A stretch of 64,000 bases of DNA from positions 248,001 through 312,000 of the forward strand of contig JAKVAR010000006.1 in NCBI GenBank assembly GCA_022447585.1, in the 5' to 3' direction. Source of the stretch: Crocinitomicaceae bacterium (GTDB taxonomy: Bacteria; Bacteroidota; Bacteroidia; Flavobacteriales_D; Crocinitomicaceae). Of this stretch, positions 5,459-64,000 are shown piece after piece. A program made the position numbers and the translations under genes. The notes below the pieces were generated by a model, which was not told the DNA's origin, did no database searches, and saw only the letters and a program-made list of their open reading frames with translations. The stretch's first letter is position 1. Every line of letters starts with the position of its first letter.

Positions 5459-5620
5459 GTGTATGTAGTTTTAGTTGAAACATGGTTTAAAATGAGACCA
5501 CGCTATATCAATATTAAGAATTTTAAAACAATATTGTATATTCGTAACGAAGAAACTACGTAAATGGTTGAATTGCTATACACCTGTTTCTCAACTCAAC
5601 AAAAAATTAAACATCAAACT

Positions 5621-6007
5621 ATGAAGGTCTTTTTTATAATTGTATTATCCATTTTTACTTTAACATCATTGAACTCATGTAAAAAGGTTGAGGGGCCTGG
5701 TGGAGCCGCTACAATTAAAGGTCATATTTTGAAAGAAAAAATGATTGCTGGACAAGCATATTTTCACGATGCTGCCGATGAAGACGTTTATTTAATCTAC
5801 GGAAACGAAGACTCCTTCTACGATGACGATATTAAAACATCGTATGATGGAACTTTTGAGTTTAATTATTTAGAAGAAGGGAATTATCAGTTTTTTGTTT
5901 ATTCTGATTGTCCAACTTGTTTAAGTGGTGATACAATTATTAAACAAGATATTTTAATTGGAGAGAAGAAAGAAGTTGTTGATTTAGGAACTATTACAAT
6001 TCAATAA
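5621..6007 (+). CDS. Small lipoprotein with a carboxypeptidase-regulatory-like beta domain
   Basis: I place the start at the ATG at 5621 rather than an upstream ATG at 5564, because it yields a textbook lipoprotein signal (MKVFFIIV...LNSC). The 128-residue product has a beta-sandwich-like body with GAATIKGHI near the start and DGTFEFNYLEEGNYQFFVYSD, which resembles the carboxypeptidase regulatory-like or transthyretin-like fold. A CPTC motif occurs near residue 100. The stop overlaps the ATG of the following DUF2490 gene (TAATG), so the two are coupled and may act together at the outer membrane. No specific function is known to me. Confidence 0.8.
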   Translation: MKVFFIIVLSIFTLTSLNSCKKVEGPGGAATIKGHILKEKMIAGQAYFHDAADEDVYLIYGNEDSFYDDDIKTSYDGTFEFNYLEEGNYQFFVYSDCPTCLSGDTIIKQDILIGEKKEVVDLGTITIQ

Positions 6008-7128: not shown

Positions 7129-8548
7129 TTTTGTTCGGTGGTTTTCGTTTATTTGGTCTTTTTCTTCTATTATTTTGTTTAGGCTTTACCGCACCATCTA
7201 TTTTTGTGTTTTCGCTCTGTTTACTGTTTGAGTTAGCCTTTTTAGGCTGAACTGATTTTTTACTTAATTGATCCTTAGGTTTATTCGCTTTTTGTGCTGG
7301 TTTTCCTTTACTTTTTAGGTTCGCACTTTTTCCTTTTGGTTTAAGGTTTGAATTTCCCTTTTTAGGCTGTCCTTCACGCGAATTTTTAGGCTGATTAGGT
7401 CTGTTTCCTCTGTTTTGATTGTTAGCTCCTTTCTTTGTTGGGCGCTTTTTCTTTTTCTTCTTAAAGGCATGTTCAAAACGATTTAAACTATCTTGACCTA
7501 CAACATTCGTATAATCTGGCTCGTCTACAACAACGACTTCCATAAAATCTTTTAAATCCGCAGGTTTTTTACCCTCCTTATTCATTTTTATAACCTCTCG
7601 GACCCGCTCTGGCTTCATTGGAATTAACCCTGAAGCAAAATCTCCTTCATAGGCGTACCACATTTCTTGCTTAAAGACATCAGTTTTGATATGAATTGCT
7701 GTTCCTTTTTCTGTTCTTAATTTCAGATCTCCTTTCGGGAATGCTTTCATTGCATCCAGGTACATATCTAATTCATAATTCAAACAGCACTTTAGCTTAC
7801 CGCATTGTCCTGCTAATTTCTGAGGGTTTAATGATAGTTGTTGATATCGAGCTGCTGATGTAGATACTGATCTAAAGTCGGTTAACCAGGTAGAACAACA
7901 AAGTTCTCGTCCACAAGAACCTATTCCACCTAAACGAGAAGCTTCTTGTCTTGAGCCAATTTGGCGCATCTCAATACGAATCTTAAACTCATTCGCCATA
8001 TCGCGAATTAATTGTCTAAAATCAACTCGACCCTCTGCCGTATAATAAAACGTCGCTTTAGTTAAATCCGCTTGGTATTCAACATCTGAAATCTTCATCT
8101 GTAGTCCAAGATTTACCGCAAGTGTTCTTGATTTATACATCACTTCTTTTTCTAAAGAACGTGCTTTTATCCACTTGTCAATATCCTCTTGTTCAGCTAC
8201 TCGCTTTATTTTTTTAGCCTCCATAGGTTTAAACCCAGGAGCTTTCTTTCTTACTTGTATTCTCGCTAGTTCTCCAACAACAGAAACTACTCCAACATCT
8301 TGGCCCGGGGAGCCTTCAACTACTAAAACATCGCCCGCTTGGAGCGCGGCGTTCTTTGTATTTCTGTAGAATTCCTTACGGCTATTTTTAAACCTGACTT
8401 CTACTATATCATATGGAGTTTGACCACCTGGTAACGCCACGTTAGCCAACCAGTCATATACTTCTAATTTGTTGCAACCGCCAGAACTACAAGTACCATT
8501 GTTTTTACATCCTTTTGGAGTTCCTACTCCACAATTGGTACAGCCCAT
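7112..8548 (-). CDS. ricT: PSP1-domain protein RicT/YaaT
   Basis: A 478-residue protein of the PSP1/RicT family. The N-terminus carries five cysteines (C3, C6, C14, C20, C25). The PSP1 core (roughly 40-330) has the family motifs SCGRELCCSTW and GQCGKLKCCLNYE, cysteines that in Bacillus RicT take part in Fe-S binding. The core includes YTAEGRVDFRQL. In Bacillus RicT works with RicA and RicF in RNA maturation; the role in Bacteroidota is not established. The last 120-130 residues form a very basic, low-complexity tail of Lys, Asn, Pro and Gln, plausibly nucleic-acid binding. It lies between holB and gldH. Confidence 0.88.
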   Translation of the reverse strand: MGCTNCGVGTPKGCKNNGTCSSGGCNKLEVYDWLANVALPGGQTPYDIVEVRFKNSRKEFYRNTKNAALQAGDVLVVEGSPGQDVGVVSVVGELARIQVRKKAPGFKPMEAKKIKRVAEQEDIDKWIKARSLEKEVMYKSRTLAVNLGLQMKISDVEYQADLTKATFYYTAEGRVDFRQLIRDMANEFKIRIEMRQIGSRQEASRLGGIGSCGRELCCSTWLTDFRSVSTSAARYQQLSLNPQKLAGQCGKLKCCLNYELDMYLDAMKAFPKGDLKLRTEKGTAIHIKTDVFKQEMWYAYEGDFASGLIPMKPERVREVIKMNKEGKKPADLKDFMEVVVVDEPDYTNVVGQDSLNRFEHAFKKKKKKRPTKKGANNQNRGNRPNQPKNSREGQPKKGNSNLKPKGKSANLKSKGKPAQKANKPKDQLSKKSVQPKKANSNSKQSENTKIDGAVKPKQNNRRKRPNKRKPPNKNEKAD

Positions 8549-57870: not shown

Positions 57871-60309
57871 ATGTTACAAAGAATTCTTTACTCTGTATTA
57901 GTAATATTTTTGTTTCAAATAACTATTCATGGTCAGGTTGAATACATGATTAATGGAGGGTTTGAGGAATGGGACAATGATGATGATGATGATGGGAATC
58001 CTGACGATTTTTATGATCATTCGATTGAATATGCCATTGGTTGGCATAACTTGGTGAATACCTGTGATGTAGTTCATCCCAATTACCCATTTGTTTCAGG
58101 AACTCCAATGAACGGAGTTGGATGTGGAAGATTTGGTGCGCCACAGAATGGACTTGCTGAATTTGGATATGGTACGACTCATCCTTTAACAGCTGGCGAA
58201 ACATATCAAGTTTCTTTTTGGGTTCGAAAAGACTACTCAACAAATACGGATCGAAAAGTTGGATTGGTGATTTCAGAGACAATTCCAAACATACAAGTGT
58301 CTCCCGTATTTACCACGTCTTACGAGCCTCTAATTACCGTAATTCCAACATCTACACAGTATGTACAAGTATCGGCGTGCTATACAGCGCAGACAAGTGG
58401 GGTTCACTATGTTACAATTGGGCCGTTTTATGGTACGGGAACGCCTGAAAGTATATTATATAATATCGACGATGTTAGTGTCAAATCATTAGCTCCAGGA
58501 ACACAATTGCCAATTGCAAATGTCTCCACCTCTCAGGCGGTTTATTGTATAAATGATAATGTAATTGTGGATGGGAGTTTAACATCGAATGAAACAGGAT
58601 ATATATGGGAAATTTATGATTTAGTAAATGGAAATTCTGGACAACTCCAATATTCTTCGGGAGTTCAAAACGGACTGGCAGGAACATTTGATGTTACAGC
58701 AGCACTTGGGTTTTATCAGGCTGGAGACTGTTATCGTGTTGTCTTAAAAGCACAGGGAGCTTGTGAGAATGAAGCATATGTAGATTTTTGTTTTGCTGAT
58801 CCTAATATTGATTTCACTCATGATGGAAGTGCAATTTGTGAAAATACACCTGTTACCTTAAGTGTTACAGGAGATGCTAGTTGGACATACGATTGGAGTA
58901 CAGGGGATGCAGGTGTAGGTTTAAATACGTTAACAGTTACTCCAACAGTAAACAACTCAACATACTCAGTAACAGTAACCACTCCTGAAGGATGTACACA
59001 CACCGAAACGATCAATTTAACCGTCCATTCTGCAAATAACCAAACACCTTGGATGAATGGAATTAATGGAAGTGGAAATTATACTATTTATGTTAGTCAA
59101 GGAAATACTGTTAGCTTTAATTCTACATTATTCAATGATGACCTAAGCGAAAACCTAGTAATTGTCTCAACAGATAATATTCCTTCTAGCTTCAATGATA
59201 TCAAGCCACTCGTTGCAGGAGATAATTTATATTTTTCGTGGCAAACACATATGACAACGCCGACAGGAAGTTACTATTACAATTTAAATGTAAAAGATAA
59301 TAATGCTTGTAATGTAGGAGAAAAAGATTTCACCTTTAAAATTATCGTAATTTGTGATCAATGTCCCACCTGTCTTTATTATGAAAACCGCACTCCAACA
59401 ACAACACCACTTCCCGGTGAAACAAAAGTAGGACAGTGCATTATGGCGGGAATTACTCAACCTGTGGAGACAGGAACTACTAATGTTTTATTTCAGGCAG
59501 GAGAGTCTATTACAACCGGTAATTTCTTTTCTGCAGGCCCCGGTTACCAGGCCGTTATTGACCCTAGTATATGTATTACTGATTGTGAGGATTGTTGTCA
59601 AGATTGGACAGGTTTTACGCTCGATGAGATTCCAAACCCGGTATATATGAATTTTTCTGATTCAGATCCTACGAATGATTATTTTCAAATTACAGATGTG
59701 TTTCATCCTTTCTGCGCGTTTAATGCCAAAGGTTTTGAGTTTAGTATACTTGATCAAAGCTCTTCTATATATCATCACTCAGAAGTATTGAATGCAGAAT
59801 GCTGTAGTTTTAAATCGCCTGCACCAGAGAATTTAATACCACATTCAAGTATTTATTGGGATGGTTACACGGAGGATATATTTGGGAATACGGTTAGACC
59901 ATACGGTGTCTTGTTTTATATACTTAAATTGTATGGATGTAATGATGAGAAGCTGGAAAAACATGGGTTTATTCATATCGGAGATTTTGCTAAATCCATG
60001 GGGTTATCAGAAAATGGTCTCAATGACGAACAAAGTGAAAATCTAAAAGCGTTATTGGAAGAAAATGAAAAGCTTAGCGCGTTAATTTCTATTTCTCCCA
60101 ACCCAGCCAGTGAGTTTATAAAGTTTTCAGGATTAGAAGGGTTAGGAAAACCAACCATACAACTATTTGATAAGAACGGAAAAATTTTGAAAAAGAATAT
60201 TGAATTGCACCATAATACGTATAATATTTCCAAATTACCTGCTGGATTGTATTATCTAAAAATCCTAACAGGAAGTCAATTAGTGACAAAAGAATTTGTT
60301 AAATTGTAG
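57871..60309 (+). CDS. Large T9SS type A cargo protein
   Basis: An 812-residue secreted protein. Signal peptide (about 1-22, ending IHGQ); then a carbohydrate-binding-like N-terminal domain (NGGFEEWDND with a run of five Asp coded by GAT repeats, and YQVSFWVRKDY); Ig/PKD-like domains in the middle (about 320-390, with DWSTG and VTVTTPEGC); several CxxC-type cysteine pairs (CDQCPTC, CEDCC); and a C-terminal type A sorting domain (ISPNPASEFIKFSG ... LPAGLYYLKI...FVKL). It probably coats the surface or binds polysaccharide. Confidence 0.85.
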   Translation: MLQRILYSVLVIFLFQITIHGQVEYMINGGFEEWDNDDDDDGNPDDFYDHSIEYAIGWHNLVNTCDVVHPNYPFVSGTPMNGVGCGRFGAPQNGLAEFGYGTTHPLTAGETYQVSFWVRKDYSTNTDRKVGLVISETIPNIQVSPVFTTSYEPLITVIPTSTQYVQVSACYTAQTSGVHYVTIGPFYGTGTPESILYNIDDVSVKSLAPGTQLPIANVSTSQAVYCINDNVIVDGSLTSNETGYIWEIYDLVNGNSGQLQYSSGVQNGLAGTFDVTAALGFYQAGDCYRVVLKAQGACENEAYVDFCFADPNIDFTHDGSAICENTPVTLSVTGDASWTYDWSTGDAGVGLNTLTVTPTVNNSTYSVTVTTPEGCTHTETINLTVHSANNQTPWMNGINGSGNYTIYVSQGNTVSFNSTLFNDDLSENLVIVSTDNIPSSFNDIKPLVAGDNLYFSWQTHMTTPTGSYYYNLNVKDNNACNVGEKDFTFKIIVICDQCPTCLYYENRTPTTTPLPGETKVGQCIMAGITQPVETGTTNVLFQAGESITTGNFFSAGPGYQAVIDPSICITDCEDCCQDWTGFTLDEIPNPVYMNFSDSDPTNDYFQITDVFHPFCAFNAKGFEFSILDQSSSIYHHSEVLNAECCSFKSPAPENLIPHSSIYWDGYTEDIFGNTVRPYGVLFYILKLYGCNDEKLEKHGFIHIGDFAKSMGLSENGLNDEQSENLKALLEENEKLSALISISPNPASEFIKFSGLEGLGKPTIQLFDKNGKILKKNIELHHNTYNISKLPAGLYYLKILTGSQLVTKEFVKL

Positions 60310-60347: not shown

Positions 60348-60377
60348 AACTCACGGTAATAATTATTGCCGTGAGTT
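60348..60377 (+). terminator. Hairpin downstream of the T9SS cargo gene
   Basis: A 13-bp stem (AACTCACGGTAAT / ATTGCCGTGAGTT, one G-T pair) with a four-base loop, 38 bases after the stop. The following T-rich stretch is interrupted, so termination is plausible but not certain. Confidence 0.6.
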
Positions 60378-60556: not shown

Positions 60557-61267
60557 TCAAGCAATTAAGTTTTTTGTGCACAAATCGTTTAAAAAGAATA
60601 ATAGGTCAACTTTTTGTTGTTCATCTAATTTTAAATTGGTTTCAGATGTAATTAGGTCTAAGAGTTCTTCTACACTTTGTATATCTGGGTTTTGTAGATT
60701 CGTTAAGACAGTAAAAATGAACGGTGACAATTGCTTTAACTCAACTTCAAAACTTGTTTGATTGCGGTATATCATCAAGAAGTAATTTCCTTTCTGTGTG
60801 ATATTTTTCCAGTTTTTATCAAATACTGGATAGTTAAAATGAAGTATTTCCAGTTCCTTCGAAAAAACAGGTCTTGTTTTCAAGGTACCATCAAATGAAT
60901 TCAGTTTAACAGGTTGATCTTCTCTAAAATATAAGTTTACAATGCTCCATTCATAAAGCGCCAAGTCTACAATAAAAGGATATTCTTTTTTCAACGTTAA
61001 TTCTCCAGCAACTAGGTAATCATAAAGTTCTCCTGGAAACTTCCAAAAAATAAAGCTTTGACAAGGGTGTTTTTTGATGAAATTATCAACCAAATTATTC
61101 CAATTTTCTTCACCTAAAAGTTGAGACAAAATGGGATATACATTTAGTAAGTTGTCCTGAATATTATCTCTGACCATCTTTTGATATACTTTAGATGAAT
61201 CGGGCTTTTTTCCTCTGATATTTCGTGCAAATTCCTTTTGCCAAATATGGTCTTTTTCTGAAATCAT
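60557..61267 (-). CDS. HvfC/BufC-like (DUF2063) partner protein of the MNIO enzyme
   Basis: A 236-residue protein. The N-terminal domain fits DUF2063 (putative DNA-binding domain family): KMVRDNIQDNLLNVYPILSQLLGEENW, IKKHPCQSFIFWKFPGELYDYL and YPFIVDLALYEWSIVNLY. In MNIO pathways such as Hvf and bufferin systems, this family is the partner protein that helps deliver the precursor peptide to the MNIO enzyme. The C-terminal part is less conserved. Its start overlaps the MNIO stop (ATGA). Confidence 0.85.
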   Translation of the reverse strand: MISEKDHIWQKEFARNIRGKKPDSSKVYQKMVRDNIQDNLLNVYPILSQLLGEENWNNLVDNFIKKHPCQSFIFWKFPGELYDYLVAGELTLKKEYPFIVDLALYEWSIVNLYFREDQPVKLNSFDGTLKTRPVFSKELEILHFNYPVFDKNWKNITQKGNYFLMIYRNQTSFEVELKQLSPFIFTVLTNLQNPDIQSVEELLDLITSETNLKLDEQQKVDLLFFLNDLCTKNLIA

Positions 61268-62067
61268 GATAATAGATTCTTCACTTCCATGAACTCATCA
61301 ACTAATTCATCAAAAGGCTCAAAATTACTTTCTCGCTCAAGACATATGGGGGTGTTTGATGGGATTTTATCTTTGATTTTTAGTAAATCATAAAGTGTGT
61401 TTTTCTCAATTGGTCGATCATGAGAATCAAAAATTATTGAGGAATGATTGGTGTCATAGCTTCCAAGATGCAGGTATTGCACATGCTCAAATGGATAGTC
61501 GCGAAAGAAGTCCTGAGAGCAATACCCATGGTTTTTAGCGTTGACATAAACATTGCTGATGTCAAGTAATAAGCCGCACTTTGAAGCTTGTTGAAGCTCT
61601 TTTATATATTGCAATTCAGTCATGTCAGACTCTGGTAATATATAATAACAAACATTTTCCAATACCAGCGATCTTTCTAAAACCTCCTGAGCAATCCTAA
61701 CTTTTTCTGAAATGTGATTAAGACTCTTGATTGTGAAGGGAATAGGCATTGATTCGTACATGTGAGCATTATCGATGCTTGAAAACGCCAAATGTTCACT
61801 GTAAATATCAATGTTGTAATCATCTAAAAATTGCTTTATGACCTTAAGAGCTTCTATGTTCACTGGTTCAGGGCTTCCAATGGAAAGAGATAAACCATGC
61901 GCTGTAAAACGGAATCGCTCACTTAATTGATCGAGTTTTCGTTTCCAAATACCACCTAGTCCAATCCAATTTTCAGGGGCGATTTCAAGAAATTCAGGAG
62001 CAAAATGACCCGCTAAAAGCGGGTCTGCAATATCTCGTCTAAGCGTATAACCAAGAGGTGTTTTCAT
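61264..62067 (-). CDS. DUF692 / MNIO family multinuclear non-haem iron oxygenase
   Basis: A 267-residue TIM-barrel enzyme of the MbnB/TglH/HvfB family. Putative iron ligands are in the expected segments: H57 (HGLSLSIG), E91/H92 (YSEHLAF), E137/N138 (LENVCYY), D169/N172 (LLLDISNVYVN), H200 (LHLGSYD), D214/H216 (DSHDRPI) and E244 (LERESNF). Such enzymes modify Cys (or C-terminal Asp) residues in ribosomal peptides, often to oxazolone, thiooxazole or similar groups. It lies between a small secreted peptide gene (two bases away) and the partner gene (overlap), making a compact operon. Confidence 0.92.
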   Translation of the reverse strand: MKTPLGYTLRRDIADPLLAGHFAPEFLEIAPENWIGLGGIWKRKLDQLSERFRFTAHGLSLSIGSPEPVNIEALKVIKQFLDDYNIDIYSEHLAFSSIDNAHMYESMPIPFTIKSLNHISEKVRIAQEVLERSLVLENVCYYILPESDMTELQYIKELQQASKCGLLLDISNVYVNAKNHGYCSQDFFRDYPFEHVQYLHLGSYDTNHSSIIFDSHDRPIEKNTLYDLLKIKDKIPSNTPICLERESNFEPFDELVDEFMEVKNLLS

Positions 62068-62069
62068 TA

Positions 62070-62360
62070 TTACTTTTTCCTTTGATCTCTTTTTGCTTTA
62101 CGTCGATTTTTTCTTTTTTGGGCTTTGGTTTTTATGGTAGGAGTTGCTCTTAAAAAACTTGCGCCACTATAAGCGCAATTAAGCTCTGAAGGCGTGAAAA
62201 TATCTTTTGTTACTTGAATTTCGTTTACTTCGAAAGATTGACGTTTATGATCAAATGAATTACCCAAGTCGACATTTTCAATCATTGGAGTGTTGGCTGC
62301 CATTCCTGCAGTGGCCATAAGGATTCCAGATCCTATTAACAATACTTTTTTTCTAGACAT
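62070..62360 (-). CDS. Small secreted polycationic peptide, putative MNIO substrate
   Basis: I use the ATG at 62360 (MSRKKVLLIGSG), because the longer frame (from 62438) adds 26 residues without features. The 96-residue product has a basic n-region, a hydrophobic stretch (6-19), and a likely AxA-type cleavage after AGMAA. The mature part holds one cysteine (C62, in ELNCAYSGASF) and ends in a highly basic tail (77-96, about 13 of 20 Lys or Arg). It directly precedes the DUF692 gene. I infer it to be the RiPP precursor; no known family was recognised, and it lacks the repeated Cys motifs of HvfA or DUF2282 bufferins. Confidence 0.75.
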   Translation of the reverse strand: MSRKKVLLIGSGILMATAGMAANTPMIENVDLGNSFDHKRQSFEVNEIQVTKDIFTPSELNCAYSGASFLRATPTIKTKAQKRKNRRKAKRDQRKK

Positions 62361-62385
62361 GATTTTATATTTTATGTTTATAAAG

Positions 62386-62399
62386 TTCACTTTTGTGAA
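62386..62399. promoter_or_regulatory. Inverted repeat TTCAC-TTTT-GTGAA upstream of the peptide gene
   Basis: A perfect 5-bp inverted repeat 26 bases before the ATG; candidate operator or leader hairpin. Confidence 0.35.
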
Positions 62400-62445
62400 T
62401 TTCAAGATATAATACAACCGTATGCAGATTTGGTTCAAAAGAAAA

Positions 62446-62458
62446 TCACTTTTAGTGA
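62446..62458. promoter_or_regulatory. Second inverted repeat TCACT-TTT-AGTGA upstream of the peptide gene
   Basis: A related perfect 5-bp inverted repeat, 60 bp from the first, with the same CACTTTT core. Together they could bind one regulator. Confidence 0.3.
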
Positions 62459-62627
62459 CTTAATAGTAATATGTTGACAACAAATATGCGCTAACGATTT
62501 TTCTAATAGTCGACAATAACCCATTCATATTAAAACACTTAACTGTAATTTGAATCATTTACAATGCAACCATAGAATCCATGGTAGAAATATAAATTAA
62601 TGGATAGGAAAAGTATGTCTTAATTTA

Positions 62628-63995
62628 CTATTCCATGAGAATATATTCGAGTTCACTGTGGTAGTAGTTGCTTTCATATATTAATTGAATTTCTTGAACT
62701 TTTGCATTCAACCAAGCGCTTTCTCTAGAGTTAATCATAAATATTGAGCTTTCTCCAAGTTGAAATAGAGTTAACTCTGAATTGTAAAGTGTTTCATTAT
62801 TCATCACCAATTTATTGATTACATCGAGTTGAGATAGAGATAGGCTATAATTGTTTCTTATGGCTTTTATTTTTGCCGATAAAGACACTGCTTTCTCTTG
62901 CATCTTTAGTTTTTCATCTTTTAGTTTTAATTGCGCCAATTGAACACTACCGCGTGCTTTTCTAGACAAAATATCATAAGAGAAATTTGCTCCCCAGTTA
63001 TAATTGTCCGTATTATAAGAGTTTATTGGGTTGCCATTAACTGAGCTAGAAATAGCGTTATATTTTAGACTGAGTTTTGGTTTCCATGATTCCCGCTTTA
63101 ACTTTAAATCTATTTCTCTTTGCTCTATATTGAACCCATTAATCGCAATCATTGGGTGATTTAATAATGTTGAATCAATTGCTTTGTTTGGAAAGATTTT
63201 GAGTTGAGTAGTTTTCTCTGGATATACATTGTCTAATTCTAACGGTATTAGTTTGTTGGACCATAAGAACATTTCAACCATTATTTCACTGTTAACGAGT
63301 TGGTTATTTGCTTTTTCAAGAGAAATCAGTCTATTTTGAAATGCTATAGAAGCCTCAACGGTATCAATGTATGGTTTGTCGCCAAAATATGCAGACTCTT
63401 TAACGGCTTTTAATCTAATTTCCGCGTTTTCATATGCTTGTTTATAGACATTATATACTCGATATGCCTGCTGCCATTTCCAATAAGCAATTGATGCCTC
63501 TTTTTTCAAGTCGCTAAGCATTATTATGCGCTCGTTTGAATTGATTTCAAGCAAAGATTTTGATTTTTCAAAAATTGCTCTTCTTTCATTCATTATTAAA
63601 CCGTTACCCAGCTGTATTTCAATACCAGCCTGCCATAAACCATTTGTAGGAACCCGTTGTTCAGGGTTGAGGTATATTCCATCGTTGAGAGAGTATCCAG
63701 CGTTGAAGGAAACACCATACCAAGTTGGAACTTTTAACCCTCCTTCTATTTTACTGTAATACTGTTGGTCGTTGAAGTACTTTTGATTAATGTTTCCTAC
63801 TAATTTTGGATCAAAAGCACCTCGAGATTCTTGCAAGTTGGCCTCCCCCATTTGTCCTTTAAGTTCTGCTCTTTGTGCAAAGGGATGATTACCCATGACT
63901 ATTTCGATGAAAGAATCGTAACTAATTACTACTGTTGAATCTTGGGCGAAAATAGAGGTGCTTGCAATAAATAAAACGAATAGAATTGCTCTCAT
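62628..63995 (-). CDS. TolC family outer-membrane efflux protein
   Basis: A 455-residue protein with a signal peptide (about 1-17, ending IFAQ), then the TolC architecture: repeated long helices (about 45-75, 140-215, 220-260, 345-440) with strands between (GLKVPTWYGVSFNAGYSL). It forms an outer-membrane channel that works with an inner-membrane pump and adaptor. Those partner genes are not in the window but would be expected upstream on the minus strand, beyond the right edge. It points towards the MNIO operon (267-base gap) and could help export its product, but that is only a neighbourhood inference. Confidence 0.88.
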   Translation of the reverse strand: MRAILFVLFIASTSIFAQDSTVVISYDSFIEIVMGNHPFAQRAELKGQMGEANLQESRGAFDPKLVGNINQKYFNDQQYYSKIEGGLKVPTWYGVSFNAGYSLNDGIYLNPEQRVPTNGLWQAGIEIQLGNGLIMNERRAIFEKSKSLLEINSNERIIMLSDLKKEASIAYWKWQQAYRVYNVYKQAYENAEIRLKAVKESAYFGDKPYIDTVEASIAFQNRLISLEKANNQLVNSEIMVEMFLWSNKLIPLELDNVYPEKTTQLKIFPNKAIDSTLLNHPMIAINGFNIEQREIDLKLKRESWKPKLSLKYNAISSSVNGNPINSYNTDNYNWGANFSYDILSRKARGSVQLAQLKLKDEKLKMQEKAVSLSAKIKAIRNNYSLSLSQLDVINKLVMNNETLYNSELTLFQLGESSIFMINSRESAWLNAKVQEIQLIYESNYYHSELEYILME

Positions 63996-64000
63996 TTTAC

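Follow-up and report, generated by a model that had tools for sequence, protein, structure and literature searches.

A three-gene operon on the minus strand

The window, by which we mean the whole stretch of 64,000 nucleotides from a Crocinitomicaceae bacterium, contains a three-gene operon on the minus strand, in which the genes for a precursor peptide, an MNIO and a partner protein follow each other in that order. The precursor gene (62070..62360) codes for 96 amino acids plus a stop and is separated by two bases from the MNIO gene (61264..62067, 267 amino acids), which overlaps by four bases with the partner gene (60557..61267, 236 amino acids); the coordinates of all three genes agree with the spacing given in an earlier, sequence-only reading. 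The MNIO is HvfB-like and matches PF05114 with E=1.4e-73 in a Pfam scan. The partner is HvfC-like and matches PF09836 (DUF2063; E=9.3e-18, 64.7 bits against a cut-off of 27.2) and PF22106 (NGO1945_C; E=6.3e-9, 36.6 bits against a cut-off of 27); judged by these domains, it is a PME-type 1 partner, made up of DUF2063 plus an RRE-like domain. No Pfam or NCBIfam model matches the window precursor at E<=1. The domain matches and the absence of a precursor family bear out the earlier description of the locus: a compact RiPP-type operon built around an MNIO, whose precursor belongs to no recognised family.

The precursor starts with a probable Sec signal peptide (residues 1–22, 62295..62360, minus strand, boundary placed by eye), and its relatives have the same architecture. 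The core, E59-L-N-C62-A-Y-S65 (62166..62186, minus strand), contains the single Cys of the peptide, and E59, L60, C62, A63 and Y64 are identical in all four precursors described below. The last 20 residues form a polybasic tail (62073..62132, minus strand) with 13 Lys or Arg, so the single Cys and mostly basic tail noted before are indeed present. After CAYS, the window precursor has a net charge of +13; in the four precursors the part following the core carries +11 to +13, while the mature part amino-terminal to it is acidic (−4 to −6).

The nearest operon is found in a Crocinitomicaceae metagenome-assembled genome (L001, taken as the same as G177, with an identical MNIO; the two are counted once), where the precursor is 85%, the MNIO 89% and the partner 82% identical to those of the window. 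Between the window and G177 precursor genes there are 7, 8 and 24 differences at codon positions 1, 2 and 3, respectively, and the third position accounts for 24 of 39 differences in the precursor, 87 of 120 in the MNIO and 65 of 108 in the partner gene. The precursor dN/dS is 0.077/0.50 by NG86 and 0.071/0.64 by YN00, and dN/dS is low for all three genes. The 85% identical orthologue, the codon-position pattern and the dN/dS values together indicate that the precursor is a real gene.

The genes adjoining the operon differ among the four genomes that carry it. The window and G177 have mnmE in common, 4–5 kb downstream and 74.7% identical, so that the two loci are orthologous; a fully independent mobile cassette is not supported. 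Around the G183 and G023 operons nothing but the three operon genes matches the window neighbourhood, and the neighbourhoods of G177 and G023 have two weak repeat-type matches besides the operon genes. Transposase genes (PF01527; PF13276/PF00665) are located directly downstream of the G183 operon (L117 6774–7554). Genes for a TolC-like outer membrane efflux protein (OEP), a HlyD-like protein, an ABC transporter and a TetR-type regulator lie upstream on the same strand (window 62628–63998 and L115 8997–13041); dedicated export by these ABC-HlyD-TolC genes was considered and set aside, as they are without counterpart around the other three operons, the G183 contig being only 12.7 kb long. On the downstream side, convergent with the operon, the window codes for an 812-residue protein bearing a sorting domain for type IX secretion (57871–60309), and in G177 a different type IX-tailed protein is located at the same place.

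The 268 bases preceding the start codon are similar to the corresponding bases in G177, with a local score of 86 against a maximum of 43 in 200 shuffles. By eye, the likeness is best in the last 110 bases or so (62361..62470, minus strand, boundary by eye), a stretch that may hold a promoter; with loci as closely related as those of window and G177, such likeness is no more than a hint that the operon has its own promoter. Between the end of the operon and the convergent gene, a strong hairpin (60348..60377, no strand assigned, z −3.9) is a possible terminator; its T-rich tail, scored on the plus strand only, is terminator-like there.

Homologues and kinship with repeat-type operons

A profile built from the four precursors was searched against 240 genomes of the bacterial family, including that of the window, and matches four of them at E<=1e-40 (G000, G177, G183 and G023), two of these being the close orthologues from window and G177. 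A fifth match, in G130, has E=0.008 and is a KCGE-repeat precursor. At the order level, 3 of 399 genomes match, all among the same four, and at the phylum level 1 of 395, the window's own; both sets are samples, so members may occur elsewhere. None of 180 viral stretches that matched a pattern was confirmed as carrying the operon. The sequence-only reading had proposed a search for homologues and had named homologues widespread without MNIO genes, or a variable Cys, as signs against its claim. Neither is seen: each of the four precursor genes is followed immediately by genes for an MNIO and a DUF2063-type partner, and none of the four peptides lacks the conserved Cys. Chance placement of an unrelated basic protein before an MNIO gene is rejected for the same reason, the two neighbours being the same in all four. 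Each of the four genomes has a single MNIO match at E<=0.001.

The four precursors, here called CAY-type, have the common core E-L-[NC]-C-A-Y, in the form ELNCAY[SG] in two and ELCCAYG in the other two. Several basic positions of the tail are also common to all four, and the G183 and G023 precursors each contain one further Cys, at unlike places.

Eight Flavobacteriales MNIO loci related to that of the window have signal-peptide precursors with repeated KCGE motifs, of the oxazolin/HvfA type. When the CAY leaders and the eight KCGE leaders were compared without signal peptides, the alignment scored 21.6 with an hhalign probability of 46.7%; hhalign used three of the four CAY rows, and some of the signal peptide was left in the G005 row, where the pattern had cut at an earlier LGSG. 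In 200 column shuffles the maximum score was 14.3, and none was as high as the observed one. With the signal peptides retained the probability is 89.4%. The likeness does not seem to come from signal peptides alone, as the match remains after their removal, albeit at modest probability and with an incompletely trimmed G005 row. The common stretch lies around [LM][FI]E....LG[NS].

In a tree of 36 MNIO rows, which includes 18 hand-chosen loci of 76 non-flavobacterial ones, the CAY-type enzymes, four in number, fall into a single clade (100/98) within a flavobacterial clade (96/91) whose other members are the eight enzymes of KCGE type and two without a label. The proteobacterial EGKCG-type enzymes are located outside. 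The partner tree (24 rows, with 12 of those non-flavobacterial loci, two without a downstream gene having been dropped) agrees: its CAY clade (95/92) groups with the flavobacterial KCGE-type sequences. Long-branch warnings apply to G023 in both trees and, in the partner tree, to gamma_L014 where it meets the flavobacterial group. No precursor label is given to G218 or to G087, where the MNIO is at the end of the contig; G056 is labelled KCGE on account of L003, whose MNIO is 100% identical and whose KCGE precursor follows the partner gene. In L003 (Brumimicrobium mesophilum), a precursor-like reading frame before the MNIO (5470–5766) ends soon after the leader, while the full KCGE precursor is at 7990–8400. 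The lipoprotein-like precursor of G218 (L124 6249–6515; LTSC followed by CGEGKCG motifs, no Pfam match) likewise follows the partner gene and does not precede the MNIO.

Leader, MNIO and partner thus appear to be of common descent with the oxazolin/HvfA lineage, the leader match being the weakest of the three. Since all three go with KCGE-repeat operons from the same order of bacteria, we regard the window operon as a divergent branch of that lineage. The CAY type is taken as the derived one on the ground that the EGKCG-type MNIOs branch outside, and not on the order of CAY and KCGE types inside the flavobacterial clade. The simplest account would be a single, joint change of core, enzyme and partner in descent from an ancestor of the repeat type. 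The suggestion that the peptide represents a new class, unlike Cys-repeat precursors, survives in part: the core lacks repeats and the precursor lacks a family, but leader, enzyme and partner have relatives. Nothing observed here speaks for the antimicrobial role that the same reading named as possible.

Relation to characterised MNIO systems

Matches to the HvfB and HvfC models stay below the equivalog level: the window MNIO scores 273.7 bits on the HvfB model (cut-off 360) and the partner 117.2 bits on the HvfC model (cut-off 142), while the one KCGE-type MNIO scanned passes the HvfB model with 376.9. The HvfA model NF050137 matches none of the three CAY precursors scanned; all three KCGE precursors scanned match it with E 0.0019–0.0053, below its cut-off. 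With oxazolin/HvfABC and the EGKCG captophorins (fontiphorin, bulbicupramide) the operon shares the order precursor–MNIO–DUF2063 partner, the signal peptide, the leader and the grouping of enzyme and partner; it differs from them in lacking the EGKCG/KCGE repeat, in having a single E-L-x-C-A-Y core and a polybasic tail, and in six signature changes of the MNIO. None of the eight genes adjoining the four CAY operons matches DoxX. Bufferins (Buf1 with DUF2282, and Buf2) also combine a Sec signal peptide with an MNIO and a PME-type 1 partner, but the window precursor has one Cys and no DUF2282 match, and so resembles neither the DUF2282 nor the multi-Cys Buf2 precursors; its MNIO scores 200.4 bits against a BufB cut-off of 310. 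Methanobactin (MbnABC) shares the enzyme family only: the window MNIO scores 52.6 bits against an MbnB cut-off of 325, and the methanobactin precursor has no signal peptide and an MbnC partner, according to the parts available of PMC12452194.

One-Cys MNIO precursors are not unique to the CAY type. Those of L047, L050 and L059 (Nitrosovibrio/Nitrosospira) also have one Cys and an MNIO next door; unlike the window precursor, they contain an EGRCG motif and, by eye, an EF-hand-like tail, and L059, the only one of them placed in the MNIO tree, is outside the flavobacterial clade. An automatic precursor picker chose a reading frame with a KCG, GKC or SCGE motif before 49 of 80 MNIO loci and otherwise another frame or none, the true precursor at the remaining loci sometimes being elsewhere. 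Besides Buf1, Buf2, EGKCG/oxazolin and CxxxxC precursors, the available part of Antoine et al. (2025, PMC12452194) describes hundreds of small reading frames before MNIO genes, unnamed signal-peptide peptides with 1–18 Cys (Table S2), among which members of the CAY family may be present. Among the papers listed by literature searches, titles and abstract openings name no MNIO precursor with a CAY core or a polybasic tail.

MNIOs of the ChrH type, with a CPACGMG core, are another kind described from Bacteroidota (PMC12636315, in the part available). Within the bacterial family of the window, G097 codes for a short peptide with two C-P-x-C-R-S-G-F-P-G motifs (L097 1029–1277), immediately preceding a distant homologue of the MNIO; this is possibly another precursor type. 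Near a divergent MNIO of G025 is a protein ending in SSCSSC repeats and GGGCSGCGGCG (L096 3236–3667), which we take to be reminiscent of TIGR04222-type proteins.

The MNIO and the proposed product

Residues H57, H92, E137, D169, N172, H200, D214, H216 and E244 of the window MNIO are present in all 32 aligned MNIO rows. Six of them, H57, H92, E137, D169, H200 and E244, we take to be ligand positions, so that the His/Asp/Glu ligands expected by the sequence-only reading are presumably all there. N172, D214 and H216 line up with N175, D241 and H243 of 3bww. Assuming a one-residue shift between 3bww and HvfB, they would correspond to HvfB N175, D242 and H244, which are needed for activity, the Ala or Ser variants being inactive; 3bww is called closely related to HvfB in the same source (PMC13419390, consulted in part).

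In all four CAY-type enzymes, six positions differ that are invariant across the 28 other MNIO rows: D105E, L106S, S140 to Cys, Thr or Val, A202G, F247 to Ser, Val or Ala, and P250 to Glu or Asp. The same count gives one such change for the five-member KCGE clade and 0, 0, 1, 0, 0 and 0 for six smaller clades; further private changes inside the CAY clade number six in window plus G177, one in G183 alone and three in G023 alone. Positions 140, 202 and 247 are two to three residues from E137, H200 and E244. This coordinated change fits an active site reshaped for the new core, or else a changed chemistry, with faster evolution of the lineage as a partial alternative.

On balance we consider it probable, by a modest measure, that the product of the operon is a peptide of the oxazolin/captophorin lineage, modified and secreted, in which the repeat core has given way to one CAY core and a polybasic tail, with a co-adapted enzyme. 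By homology, the RRE-like domain of the partner, together with the MNIO, would hold the precursor via its signal peptide and leader (LGN/LGS motif). The iron site of the MNIO would then oxidise C62, the most likely product being a 5-thiooxazole (−4 Da); in the two ELCCAY relatives one or both Cys may be modified. The MNIO–PME1 clusters characterised so far reportedly form 5-thiooxazole from Cys, with a loss of 4 Da each (available parts of PMC12668002 and PMC13419390; PMC12538549 tentatively). In the double-variant panel of FonBC only Ala is accepted in place of the Gly after Cys, motifs with a charged residue after Cys are unprocessed and one Cys-Tyr motif is modified once (PMC12668002, same part); as C62 is followed by Ala, the window core would fit this preference. 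HvfBC prefers its precursor with the signal peptide (PMC13419390, part available), in line with the retained CAY leader. Counting against the favoured explanation are the sub-cut-off HvfB and HvfC scores, the modest leader probability, the presence of only four homologues, and the observation that FonBC left a shortened substrate with one EGKCG repeat unmodified (PMC12668002, available part).

The peptide would be exported by Sec, with removal of the signal peptide, leaving a mature form some 74 residues long, whose first half is acidic and which carries a single soft-metal ligand besides the polybasic tail. Speculatively, this could bind Cu(I), probably with two peptides per ion, since a peptide has just one thiolate to give. 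The acidic half and the basic tail might attract each other, or the tail might be drawn to anionic surface polymers, and peptides would thereby be joined or kept at the surface. A lone thiooxazole would chelate weakly, which counts against the copper step.

Of the other explanations, the strongest, although we think it unlikely, is that the CAY-clade MNIO performs a different reaction on E-L-x-C-A-Y, either on Tyr64 or yielding a product other than a thiooxazole from Cys and its neighbours. Y64 is as invariant as C62 (4/4), the six changed positions, three of them beside presumed ligands, could mean another reaction, and other MNIO families modify residues other than Cys, by ortho-Tyr formation or homocitrulline hydroxylation (PMC12257519, PMC13174530, each in part). 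Against this, characterised MNIOs with PME1 partners and signal-peptide precursors make thiooxazoles from Cys (likewise from the parts available), the presumed iron-ligand positions are unchanged, and faster evolution alone could explain part of the changes. Equally doubtful is a bolder version in which the MNIO lineage switched its substrate and perhaps its reaction, the six changes producing a new Cys-Ala-Tyr modification and the secreted polycationic peptide acting as a dimeric or surface-bound metal ligand. We find it improbable that the modified peptide has a non-metal job, as a surface, nucleic-acid or signalling peptide acting via its tail, its modified Cys serving in redox or covalent chemistry: the strongly basic tail of all four precursors and the single thiol group, compared with 4–15 in repeat precursors, would suit such a role, but the lineage is one of copper-binding peptides and no evidence points to another target. 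Least credible is a decaying or idle operon, its repeats lost and its single Cys unmodified or modified to no use, for while it would account for there being fewer Cys than in the KCGE relatives, for the few genomes (4 of 240) and for the long branches in both trees, dN/dS between window and G177 is low in all three genes, four lineages have retained the core, the chemistry of the tail and the order of the genes, and the presumed ligand positions are intact.

Rather than a class without relatives, the operon is best read as a branch derived within the oxazolin/captophorin lineage. As such it would be a natural experiment in MNIO substrate change, with the leader kept, the core replaced and a short list of co-changed enzyme positions, and KCGE-type relatives are available for comparison in the same bacterial family. 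As a natural substrate that has a single Cys or two neighbouring ones, the CAY peptide would be less complex than the multi-repeat oxazolins, and the six signature positions of the MNIO are direct targets for mutagenesis.
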